Below, one piece after another: positions 19,961 through 30,110 of a stretch of DNA of 42,570 nucleotides; position 1 is the first letter of the stretch; the number at the start of each line of letters is the position of its first letter. Position numbers and translations under genes: made by a program. The notes under the pieces are model-generated. The model was not told the DNA's origin. It was given only the letters and a program-made list of their open reading frames with translations, and searched no databases. The DNA lies in contig JAITMR010000027.1 in NCBI GenBank assembly GCA_031277215.1, positions 1 to 42,570 on the forward strand, given 5' to 3'. This stretch comes from Burkholderiales bacterium (GTDB taxonomy: Bacteria > Pseudomonadota > Gammaproteobacteria > Burkholderiales > Casimicrobiaceae).

Positions 19961-19989
19961 TTTACAAAAATTAGCAGTTCGAGTATGTT
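19961..19989 (+). promoter_or_regulatory. Sigma70-like promoter of the kinase-cheY-cheX unit
   Basis: TTTACA (19961-19966) and TATGTT (19984-19989) are separated by exactly 17 bases in an AT-rich stretch about 105 bases before the kinase ATG. It is the best sigma70 match in this gap. Confidence 0.5.
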
Positions 19990-20093
19990 ACAGGGTGATT
20001 CATTGTAAAGTGAACAGGATTGGGTTAAGGACGCGGAAAAGCCCTCCTGTTGCCAGATAGCTATACCGATAATAGGGATGATTGGAGGGTAAG

Positions 20094-22142
20094 ATGTTTA
20101 GGGGACTTTTCCGGAAATACCTCGCGATTTTTTTCTCGGTGGTGATCTTCTTTGTCTTTAACCTGGCCATTTTGGGCACAAACATCTACACTTCGCAAAA
20201 AATTGCCGAATCGGCGGTGTCGATCAACCTGTCCGGTCGTCAGCGGGCGATGTCACAACGGATGTCCAAATCGCTGATGTTGGTGCAGGATAACATGCTG
20301 CGCGGTCAGTCGCAGGATGCTGATCTGAGGGAACTGGCGTTTGCGGTAAACATTTTCGACACCACAATAAGAGGCTTCCGCGATGGAGCCGTGGTGACCG
20401 GCGGCGATGGCAACCCGGTGTTTCTGGTGCAAGTCGAAACGGAAGAAGGGCACCGGATCGTGCGTGACGCCTACGAAATCTGGAGCCCTTATCTGATCAG
20501 ACTGCAACCGCTGCTAAGAAGCCCTGATTTCAGTATAGAAGAATTGGAAGACGCGGTGGCGTACATGCGCGCCAACAACGTACCGTTATTTGATTTGATG
20601 AACGCCTTGACATTCGAGCTCGAACGGAGCGCCAACCAGCGGGCGAATCTCCTTTGGTGGGTTCAGATCATAGGGTTGTCGGCGGTGTCGTTTTATGTGT
20701 TGTACATCGTGTTCATCGCAATCACCGGTTTGATAGGTAGTGACCGCAACTTGGCCAAGGCGCGTAAGGAAACCGGGGAAATTCTGGGGACGGTGAAAGA
20801 AGGCTTGTTCCTGCTCGACCGGGAATACCGGCTGGGGTCGCAGTATTCGAAATCGCTGAGGAACGTTTTGCGACGTGAAGTGTTTCCGGAAATGCCATTC
20901 ATGCCTGTGTTGGAGGAGATGGTATCCAAGGAAGTTTACGAGAACGCCAGAGACTATATCGAATTGCTGTTTGGCGATCGGGTGAAAGAAGCGCTGGTGA
21001 CCTCGTTGAACCCATTAAGTCAGGTGGAAGTACGCGGTAAGGAAGGTGAAGAATCACTCTATTTGAACTTCAACTTCAACCGGGTGCTCGAAGAAGGTAA
21101 AATTGCACACTTGCTGGTGACGGTGCAAGACGTGACAGAACTGGTGCAACTGACCGCGCAATTGGATGTGGCGAAAGGGCAGTCGCGGGTTGAGGTGGAG
21201 GTGCTGCTCAAACTACTGAACACTGACGCCAGCGTGTTGCGGCAATTCCTGGATAACGTCGGCAAAGGGCTGGCTCAAATCAATGAGCGGTTGCGTTCCG
21301 AGGATGATAGCGAGAAGGCGCGTTTGCACCTGTTGAACCACATCATGCGGATCGTGCACGGCATCAAGGGCGAGGCTGCAGCACTGAACATTGAAATGTT
21401 CGAAGGCTATGCGCACGGATTTGAAAGAGAGCTGGTCGGGATGCGCGAAAAAGGTGAAGTGCGCGGCGAAGACATGGTGCGGATCACCGTGTTGCTGGAC
21501 GGTTTTTACGAGCGGTTGGCGTCGATCACCAATATCGCCGAAAAGATGGCGGGTTCCGGCGGTGGTGTGGATGCCGACGAAAGATACCTGCAAACGTTTG
21601 TCGGCAGCGTACAAAATCTGGCTTCCCGCATCGCTAACGACGAACAGAAGGCCGTGGACGTGGTATGCGACCTTGGCGATATCGTGAGATTGCCGCGACG
21701 GATTGCCAACGAATTGAACAGCATTACCATTCAGTTGTTGCGTAACGCCGTCAAGCATGGCATCGAAGCGCCAGCCGAGCGCGAGGCGCAGGGCAAATCG
21801 GCCAACGGAGAAATCCATGTTGAATGTAAAGAAGTAGAGCGAGACGAGTACGAATTTACCGTTCGGGACGATGGCCGCGGAATTTCGGCGGGCAAGATAC
21901 GAAAAGAACTGGTACAGAAAGGATTGCTCTCGGAAGAAGACGCGAACGCGCTCAGTATTGATGCGGTGATGTTGTGCTTGTTCGAGCCGGGCTTTTCGAC
22001 GGCGGCGACGGCCGATCGCGATGCTGGACATGGGGTCGGCCTTGATGTGGTGGCCGAGAAAATCATGAGGTTGCGCGGTCATCTGACGCTAAACAGCAAA
22101 GCGCAGGCGTTCACGGAATTCAAGATACGTTTCTCGGTTTGA
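20094..22142 (+). CDS. Membrane sensor kinase: PilJ-type sensor, PAS-like, Hpt and CheA-type ATPase, no CheW domain
   Basis: The 682-residue protein starts at the ATG at 20094, with GGAGGG just upstream. A first membrane helix (about 11-29) is followed by a periplasmic PilJ/NarX-type helix, INLSGRQRAMSQRMSKS at 44-60. A second helix lies at about 187-215. A PAS-like region (about 225-350) leads to an Hpt domain with phospho-acceptor H422 in RIVHGIKGEAAALN. The CheA-type ATPase has its N box at N551 (LLRNAVKHGIE), G1 at 592-596 (DDGRG), an F box at FEPGFSTA (630-637) and a G2 box at GHGVGLDVV (645-653). The protein ends at the close of the ATPase, so the CheW-like P5 domain of CheA is absent. 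It therefore resembles a receptor and a CheA core in one chain. CheY- and CheX-like genes follow. Signal and output are unknown. Confidence 0.9.
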   Translation: MFRGLFRKYLAIFFSVVIFFVFNLAILGTNIYTSQKIAESAVSINLSGRQRAMSQRMSKSLMLVQDNMLRGQSQDADLRELAFAVNIFDTTIRGFRDGAVVTGGDGNPVFLVQVETEEGHRIVRDAYEIWSPYLIRLQPLLRSPDFSIEELEDAVAYMRANNVPLFDLMNALTFELERSANQRANLLWWVQIIGLSAVSFYVLYIVFIAITGLIGSDRNLAKARKETGEILGTVKEGLFLLDREYRLGSQYSKSLRNVLRREVFPEMPFMPVLEEMVSKEVYENARDYIELLFGDRVKEALVTSLNPLSQVEVRGKEGEESLYLNFNFNRVLEEGKIAHLLVTVQDVTELVQLTAQLDVAKGQSRVEVEVLLKLLNTDASVLRQFLDNVGKGLAQINERLRSEDDSEKARLHLLNHIMRIVHGIKGEAAALNIEMFEGYAHGFERELVGMREKGEVRGEDMVRITVLLDGFYERLASITNIAEKMAGSGGGVDADERYLQTFVGSVQNLASRIANDEQKAVDVVCDLGDIVRLPRRIANELNSITIQLLRNAVKHGIEAPAEREAQGKSANGEIHVECKEVERDEYEFTVRDDGRGISAGKIRKELVQKGLLSEEDANALSIDAVMLCLFEPGFSTAATADRDAGHGVGLDVVAEKIMRLRGHLTLNSKAQAFTEFKIRFSV

Positions 22143-22171
22143 GGACATATTGTGAGAGAGCGTTTTGAGTT

Positions 22172-22191
22172 CTCATCCTGAGATGAGTTTT
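22172..22191 (+). other. Small hairpin with TTTT between kinase and cheY-like genes
   Basis: CTCATC (22172-22177) and GATGAG (22182-22187) form a 6-bp stem with a CTGA loop, followed by TTTT. It is too weak to be a firm terminator but could lower or set the ratio of downstream expression. Confidence 0.4.
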
Positions 22192-22237
22192 GATAAATCT
22201 TGCTTGAGTGTTAAAACGTTAGAAAAGGGAAAGCTGC

Positions 22238-22603
22238 GTGAGATTACTGATAGTTGACGATTCCAGTATTATCCGTAGCCGGATCGCCAGAATTATGGGC
22301 GATCCGCGGTTACCGTCTTTGAAGATCGTCGGGATGGCGAAAAACGGGGTCGAGGCATTGGAACTTTTTTCCAATGCGCAGCCGGAACTGGTAACGATGG
22401 ATTTGACCATGCCGGAAATGGATGGTGTCGAGTGCACCGAAAGCATGGCCAGATTGAATCCCCAGGCAAACATTCTGGTGGTGTCGGCATTAAGCGATAA
22501 AGCGACGGCTATCAAAGCGCTTAAAAGAGGCGCAAAAGGGTTTCTTTATAAGCCCTTTACGGATGAACAATTGATCGGCGCACTTCTGGAAGTTATGAGT
22601 TGA
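22238..22603 (+). CDS. Single-domain CheY-like response regulator
   Basis: The 121-residue receiver has no output domain. The acidic pair is D7-D8, the phospho-acceptor is D55 (MDLTMPEMDG), the conserved Ser is S83 (VVSALS), Y104 and K105 lie in FLYKPF, and the fold is complete. It starts at a GTG at 22238 with AAAGGGA a few bases upstream. It would accept phosphate from H422 of the upstream kinase and act by protein contact, as CheY does at the flagellar switch. No flagellar or pilus gene is in the window, so its target is unknown. The following gene begins one base after its stop. Confidence 0.93.
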   Translation: MRLLIVDDSSIIRSRIARIMGDPRLPSLKIVGMAKNGVEALELFSNAQPELVTMDLTMPEMDGVECTESMARLNPQANILVVSALSDKATAIKALKRGAKGFLYKPFTDEQLIGALLEVMS

Positions 22604-22604
22604 G

Positions 22605-23069
22605 ATGGTTGATATTACTGAACGAGAAATAGAAGTTTTTGTAGGCGCGGTGAACCGCTATTTTGCCCAGATCACGGGAGAAAAAGCCAAAATTCGCTCT
22701 TCGTTTTTGGCAGAGGGAGAAATCCATCCGCCGATCTACGATTTCACGGGATTGATCTCCCTGAGCGGGCGCTATCGCGGGTGTATTTATTTCTCGGCGA
22801 CGAAAATCATGCTGATGCGGCTGTTGCTGGCGATGCAGGAGCCACGACAAACCGATGCGCACTTGCTCGACGCGGTAGGCGAAATTGCCAATACGCTGGC
22901 GGGTAATGCGCGTGAATATTTCGGGGAGGATATGGGTATTTCGGTGCCGACGACCTTTCAGGGGCCTTCCGAGCGATTGGAGGCGGCGGTGCGGGAACGG
23001 CCTTACGTCATTATGATCAAATGGAAACAGTACGAAGCGGCAGTCATCATTGATATTGCCAAAAAATGA
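22605..23069 (+). CDS. CheX-family CheY-P phosphatase-like protein
   Basis: The 154-residue protein has the features of CheX: an N-terminal alpha/beta half with FTGLISLSGRYRGCIYFS, then the active-site helix LLDAVGEIANTLAGNARE. This helix contains the E93-x-x-N96 motif that promotes dephosphorylation of CheY in the CheC/CheX/FliY family. There is a single ExxN motif, as in CheX. The ATG lies one base after the cheY-like stop, so translation is probably coupled and the two proteins made in fixed ratio. It is inferred to reset the adjacent regulator. It lacks the receptor, adaptor and methylation genes that usually accompany CheX. Confidence 0.85.
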   Translation: MVDITEREIEVFVGAVNRYFAQITGEKAKIRSSFLAEGEIHPPIYDFTGLISLSGRYRGCIYFSATKIMLMRLLLAMQEPRQTDAHLLDAVGEIANTLAGNAREYFGEDMGISVPTTFQGPSERLEAAVRERPYVIMIKWKQYEAAVIIDIAKK

Positions 23070-23088
23070 TTCAGACTGGGATGGAACA

Positions 23089-23121
23089 AAAAACGGCGCT
23101 CTTATGACGGGTGCCGTTTTT
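23089..23121 (+). terminator. Rho-independent terminator of the signalling unit
   Basis: AAAAACGGC (23089-23097) pairs with GCCGTTTTT (23113-23121), with further inner pairing, and ends in a run of five T. It lies 20 bases after the cheX-like stop and closes the three-gene unit. Confidence 0.85.
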
Positions 23122-29369: not shown

Positions 29370-29975
29370 TCAATTTTTTTTCTTGTCCTTTTTCTTTTTG
29401 GTTTTTCTCTTGGCTTTTTTGTCGTTTTTCTTGTCTTTCTTTTTGTCCTTCTTTTTCTTTTTGAATTTGATCAGGTAGCCCCGGCATTTTTCGCTGCCGC
29501 AGTGGCAGATGTAGTCTTCCAACTCTTTTTTCTTGAGTTTGCCGTCAACCGAAAGCTTGTAGTCGTAGGAAAGCTCTTCGCCTTTCGAAATATCGCGGAT
29601 TGCCTGAATCCAGACGCGGTCGTTTTCGTCCTCAAACGATTCGCAATTGGGGGAACAGGAGTGGTTGATCCAGCGTGCCGCGTTGTTGCCGCTGCCGCCG
29701 TCGATAACGTTACCGTCGGAGAGTTCAAAGAAGAAGGTATGGGTCGGGTTGTCGGGGTCGCTGGGCGGCAATTCGAGCGCCTCGTCCCAAGTCATCCGGT
29801 CGCCTTTGTACTCAATGACCGATGTTCCCTTTTTGATTTCGCAGGCGGCGAACACGCCGCGCCCATGAATGCGGGAATTTCTGACTCTGTAAAGGAGCGC
29901 TGATTTCTTGGCAGCGGCTTTTTTACTGCGTTTTGTCGTTTTCGCGGTTTTGCGTTGAGGTGTCGTGGGTGCCAT
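29370..29975 (-). CDS. SET-domain protein (putative lysine methyltransferase) with polylysine tail
   Basis: The protein is about 201 residues from the ATG at 29975. It has a basic N-terminus (about 9-25), a compact SET domain (about 28-145) and a lysine tail. SET motifs are HGRGVFA (37-43), NHSCSPNC (104-111) and GEELSYDY (132-139). A post-SET zinc motif, CHCGSEKCRG (157-166), is also present. All S-adenosylmethionine and substrate-site motifs look intact, so activity on lysine is plausible. Residues 170-201 are nearly all Lys with Asp. Similar small SET proteins occur in betaproteobacteria and some pathogens. In-frame ATGs at 30083, 30050 and 30023 are possible starts, but the longest would leave only 27 bases to the divergent nuclease gene. 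Target unknown. Confidence 0.88.
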   Translation of the reverse strand: MAPTTPQRKTAKTTKRSKKAAAKKSALLYRVRNSRIHGRGVFAACEIKKGTSVIEYKGDRMTWDEALELPPSDPDNPTHTFFFELSDGNVIDGGSGNNAARWINHSCSPNCESFEDENDRVWIQAIRDISKGEELSYDYKLSVDGKLKKKELEDYICHCGSEKCRGYLIKFKKKKKDKKKDKKNDKKAKRKTKKKKDKKKN

Positions 29976-30110
29976 GTTCGGTTTAAAGGGGCGAAGAAGA
30001 TGGTTTGCGGCTGTTGTGGGCATAGCCTCGTAAGGGTGAGACAATACCATGTTAGAGCGCCATGTGCGCTTGATCGCTGTCATGGCTCGGAATTTTATTG
30101 ACTTATCGAC

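Follow-up and report, generated by a model that had tools for sequence, protein, structure and literature searches.

A membrane kinase with a CheA-type core, a single-domain CheY, and CheX are encoded by a conserved gene trio that probably acts as a self-contained signaling module

The window, which is the whole 42,570-nucleotide stretch of DNA from a Burkholderiales bacterium (contig JAITMR010000027.1) that was analyzed, contains a unit of three genes at positions 20094–23069, all on the + strand, that encode a kinase, a CheY, and a CheX. The kinase gene, assigned from the list of open reading frames (ORFs) and by Pfam, extends from an ATG at 20094 or a TTG at 20082 to 22142, and is followed, after a gap of 95 nt, by the cheY gene, which runs from a GTG at 22238 to 22603 and was recognized by its Response_reg domain, and then, after a gap of 1 nt, by the cheX gene at 22605–23069, which was recognized by its CheX domain. 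Folding indicated an intrinsic terminator with a 13-bp stem and a 7-nt loop at 23089–23121 on the + strand. The stem, of −18.3 kcal/mol (z of −4.7), was matched in stability by none of 200 shuffled sequences, in agreement with the strong terminator claimed in an earlier note on this DNA, and of three relatives with which it was compared, one retains it. The promoter claimed in the same note is a putative sigma-70 promoter on the + strand (TTTACA-17-TATGTT at 19961–19989; 9 of 12 consensus positions). The score in itself is at the chance level, with 3 such matches found against 3.2 expected, but the promoter is plausible because the match falls inside the longest non-coding block conserved among three congeneric genomes. 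The gap between the kinase and cheY genes holds a weak hairpin (22150–22235) that is retained by part of the genus; an attenuator hairpin between these genes was considered and rejected (z of −1.7, present in some relatives only). The unit is flanked on the left by uppP, an M16-like peptidase ORF, dnaG, and rpoD. On the right are genes for an MFS transporter and for DNA repair together with a DnaE-like ORF; the DnaE label and that of M16 were assigned by eye. The genes for the kinase, CheY, and CheX form one transcription unit, to which the flanking genes are unrelated. In a canonical chemosensory system, the kinase gene is accompanied by a gene for a receptor, CheW, CheR, or CheB; as the earlier note had stated, the window genes examined were found to include none of these. 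Farther along the window, a gene at 29370–30083 that encodes a SET-domain protein of 237 residues (PF00856, 5e-24), which is less usual in bacteria, adjoins an EamA transporter gene.

The kinase is a protein of 682 residues with transmembrane segments at residues 10–28 (TM1) and 192–210 (TM2), between which lies a periplasmic PilJ-type four-helix domain. This part is followed by a PAS-like alpha/beta domain (about 235–346) seen in an AF2 model, a coiled-coil helix (348–376), an Hpt/P1-like helical bundle with H422 (about 379–485), and a CheA P4-type ATPase (about 495–682). The model, made for a monomer with 34 homologues, had a mean pLDDT of 84 and a pTM of 0.47, so that the domain arrangement is uncertain. 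Pfam matches to PilJ (4.5e-7), Hpt (7.6e-6), and HATPase_c (3.5e-15) were all above the curated cut-offs, and residues 495–682 were aligned with CheA P4 with a Z of 21.8 and an rmsd of 2.5 over 173 residues at 32% identity. When the family profile was compared with solved structures, CheA P4 was matched at 4e-52 and CheA P1 at 1e-8 to 4e-10. Two N-terminal hydrophobic segments were present in all 34 kinase homologues, Hpt (PF01627) was found in 34 of 34 with H422 invariant, and the N- and G-box residues inspected were also invariant among them; one kinase, that of G506, is broken by a run of N. The P5/CheW-like domain (PF01584) had no match among the 34 kinases, the chain of the window protein stopping at P4, and the HisKA-type DHp domain had no match in the family, in which Hpt takes its place. 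A P3 hairpin was not visible in the monomer model, where a single helix (494–516) precedes P4, and the profile matches to CheA begin late in P3. Since a survey of CheA found P1, P3, P4, and P5 to be present in all CheA (PMC10782961), the trio kinase is outside CheA by definition, with a core that is CheA-like.

The CheY is a single-domain protein of 121 residues (Response_reg at 5.2e-26, above the curated cut-off), in which D55 is invariant across 35 CheYs, as are T57, S83, L85, and K105. Its identity to the other trio CheYs was 44–97%, compared with 31% to PilG and 26% to PilH. The CheX, of 154 residues, matched PF13690 at 4.8e-19 and scored 68.7 bits, the curated cut-off being 27, and its ExxN motif was conserved, with E93 present in 37 of 37 and N96 in 35 of 37 CheXs. 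Its AF2 model (pLDDT of 90.5) was matched by Foldseek to 6vpw and 1xko with an E of about 2e-10 and a TM of about 0.8, and the protein as modeled has the CheX fold. The fold and the motif are common to CheX of Vibrio, Shewanella, and Desulfovibrio (6vpw, 3h2d, and 3hm4), whereas the trio-type CheX constitutes a separate group by profile score (at least 88 bits versus less than 39 for other CheX). The Vibrio CheX VC0377 occurs in a motility suppressor (PMC8789113), and cheX of Alteromonas appears only in an orthologue table of the paper concerned (PMC12388587). In the CheX copies of G436 (L157:6745-7191 and L157:10903-11400), ExxN is changed to ExxS, and these copies, judging from that change, are perhaps no longer phosphatases. 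Two proteins matched by no Pfam family are encoded directly after the duplicated trios of the same genome (L157:9984-10919 and L157:5849-6721) and could be partners of the CheX or CheY of this lineage. The earlier note had described a membrane kinase with Hpt and a CheA-type ATPase, a CheY with D55, and a CheX-like protein with E93 and N96, and these descriptions were borne out by the Pfam and P4 matches, the two transmembrane segments, and the conserved and correctly numbered residues. Its further claim that one protein replaces receptor and kinase is supported by the possession of a sensor and the lack of P5.

The order of kinase, CheY, and CheX on one strand was found, with the window included, at 35 loci in 32 genomes, belonging to 13 families of one class, and the genes around these loci are unrelated. 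Within the genus of the window, 10 of 11 genomes carry the trio, the exception (G001) being 76% complete, and its neighbors are constant wherever the contig extends far enough on the left side; in four further genomes of the family, the trio is at other sites, with kinase identities of 30–33%. When searched from the kinase side, all 14 full-length kinase homologues found had CheX beside them. With the CheX profile, trio-type CheX was detected in 13 of the 300 order genomes and in 12 of the 369 class genomes searched, the window's own genome being counted. The phylum sample yielded none beyond the class, and plasmids gave no match to one CheX used as the query. A lone trio-type CheX in G154 is an exception to the trio. 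At the loci that were read, no gene next to the trio was recognized as encoding a receptor, CheW, CheR, or CheB, with the possible exception of L081, in which a receptor-like ORF, read by eye only, lies upstream. The trio, for which the earlier note had suggested a genome search covering neighbors and CheW, thus recurs in 13 families, outside any che cluster at the loci examined. No description of the conserved CheW-free trio as a named system was found in the open-licence papers searched, and a prior mention in other papers is possible. The pairwise distances of the kinase core, CheY, and CheX were correlated with r of 0.81–0.88 overall and 0.57–0.69 outside the genus, values that partly reflect shared ancestry. 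The trio has fewer genes than a canonical che cluster, as would be the case if it were a degraded cluster that ceased to work upon the loss of receptor, CheW, CheR, and CheB, but this is scarcely credible, because the catalytic residues are invariant over the 13 families, the frames are intact, the order is conserved, and the trio has been duplicated, with three copies in G492 and two in G436. All members lack P5, so that this architecture is ancestral to the group and not a result of recent decay.

CheW was absent from three genomes (G256, G223, and G186), each 99–100% complete, that all carry the trio, and FliG was missing in 21 of the 32 trio genomes, including the window's own genome and genus. 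The carriers of the trio thus include bacteria that have neither flagella nor any other chemotaxis machinery, and neither CheW nor the flagellar motor can be a requirement of the module. Flagella are present in 11 trio genomes, in which a flagellar role of the trio is possible. Near the trio of G186 is a gene for a ComP-type DUS-receptor pilin, so that the bacterial family concerned is probably Neisseriaceae. Compared with known systems, the trio shares with the CheA–CheY–CheX pathway of the Thermotoga and Borrelia type a P1-like Hpt, P4, a single-domain CheY, and an ExxN CheX, whereas its kinase carries its own sensor and transmembrane segments, and P5, a visible P3 hairpin, CheW, receptor, CheR, and CheB are lacking. 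With NarX/NarQ-type kinases and the McpN chemoreceptor, it shares the periplasmic PilJ/NarX-like bundle (PMC6381276, PMC8199190) and, in many members, the N-box or G-x-x-R; in contrast to the NarX/NarQ type, it has neither DHp nor a DNA-binding regulator and signals through a lone receiver that has a phosphatase of its own. The Pil-Chp system, which is present in the window's genome together with the trio, likewise has a sensor of the PilJ type, Hpt chemistry, and CheY-like outputs, but its PilJ, PilI, and ChpA of more than 2000 residues are all absent from the trio, the CheY of which is unlike PilG and PilH. The trio stands between two-component and chemosensory systems; its parts are known, and the conserved CheW-free combination appears to be new.

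The coexistence with Pil-Chp raises an alternative, which is that the trio feeds that system, the kinase phosphorylating or the CheX dephosphorylating PilG or PilH, with the trio CheY as a phosphate sink or decoy. In the window's own genome, the only CheW matches were indeed PilI and ChpA, and PilG, PilH, PilJ, and ChpA are encoded on a contig (C71) separate from the trio. We nevertheless consider this alternative improbable, given that the three trio genomes devoid of any CheW are consequently devoid of ChpA, that PilG (31% identity) and PilH (26%) are only distantly similar to the trio CheY, and that this CheY is encoded with the kinase in 35 of 35 trios.

With respect to the input to the preferred self-contained module, the distances of the sensor were correlated with those of the rest at r of 0.52–0.56, which is below the correlations of the core, and the kinase of G004 (L051:7525-9717) has a Tll0287-like sensor (1.8e-17) with CxxCH on the same core; the motif, CMGCH, is perhaps heme-binding. 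The sensor therefore seems to be exchangeable on a constant kinase core, and the low correlation and the exchange both fit a module whose kinase itself would read the input. The N-box has been defined for nitrate-binding PilJ domains as [IVL]-[ND]-x-A-G-x-Q-R-M-L-[ST]-Q (PMC6381276), and a G-x-x-R core has been named for nitrate sensors (PMC8199190). The N-box was exact in 7 of the 34 kinases, those of the G587 and G178 types among them, and had at most one mismatch in 6 more, and G-x-x-R was found in 21 of 34, including that of the window. The N-box of the window, INLSGRQRAMSQ, retains G-x-x-R but has 3 mismatches and falls outside the definition, and because of this and of the 13 of 34 kinases devoid of G-x-x-R, nitrate is not the general ligand. 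The trio of G587 is flanked by narK with a PP2C-Ser/Thr kinase gene and by a nirB-nirD-nasA-like cluster, in which the nasA-like protein, being below every curated cut-off, is identified by our reading, and the lone trio-type CheX of G154 is located 40 bp after nrtB-nrtCD. The occurrence of two such nitrate-cluster cases in 21 lineages has a p of about 0.005–0.02, calculated after the cases were seen and with a per-locus chance of 0.5–1% that was assumed and not measured. Part of the family could thus plausibly sense nitrate or a similar anion, and the motif weakly suggests it as the ligand of the window's own kinase.

As for the output, the CheY has no DNA-binding output, and its phosphorylated form (CheY-P) must, for this reason, bind an unlinked target; no conserved neighbor gene naming this target was seen in the loci examined. 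In the window's genome, the most likely target may tentatively be sought among the components or regulators of the type IV pilus machinery, because the genome is flagella-less, its only other chemosensory system is Pil-Chp, and pili are the best-known target of the CheY type. PilT was found in every trio genome tested and also in 84% of the class sample, and its co-occurrence was rejected as support for a pilus target (Fisher p of 0.37). The trio could, alternatively, be a two-component unit with no role in motility that controls second messengers or metabolism through c-di-GMP enzymes, a Ser/Thr kinase, or nitrate uptake. In G559, a gene for a fusion of a receiver and a Ser/Thr kinase (L151:6613-7854) starts a few bases after the trio, the trio of G272 adjoins a divergent EAL-GGDEF gene, and two members lie in the nitrate assimilation clusters, one of them by the PP2C-Ser/Thr kinase gene; however, none of the neighbors is conserved among the loci examined, where every such link was seen in one or two lineages, and we regard this alternative as somewhat unlikely.

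Taken together, the trio is probably a self-contained signaling module in which phosphate flows from the kinase to CheY, with CheX as the off-switch. The domains, the invariant catalytic residues, the conservation as a unit, and the independence from CheW and flagella can be read from the sequences, from which we also infer the phosphoflow, whereas the ligand and the target are suggested weakly. In the proposed mechanism, the kinase, presumably as a dimer, would use its periplasmic PilJ-type bundle to sense a small molecule, perhaps nitrate or another oxyanion, and the signal would pass through TM2, the PAS-like domain, and the coiled coil to the in-line Hpt and CheA-type P4 ATPase. P4 would phosphorylate H422, from which the phosphate would be handed on to D55 in the single-domain CheY. 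CheY-P would then act by contact with the unlinked target until the ExxN motif of CheX strips the phosphate, providing a fast off-switch that needs no methylation-based adaptation. A more far-reaching proposal, which we consider rather doubtful, is that the trio represents an undescribed chemosensory class that dispenses with CheW and arrays, exerts direct control over type IV pili, responds to nitrate in many lineages, and provides the only CheY-type control of pili in Neisseriaceae-like bacteria. A CheA-type core, CheY, and CheX that work without receptors and CheW would represent either a simple version of the chemotaxis pathway that has survived or one that has been stripped down. If pili are controlled, the trio would offer a small three-protein system for rebuilding chemotaxis-type phosphoflow and would be an overlooked sensing route for twitching bacteria that lack CheW.
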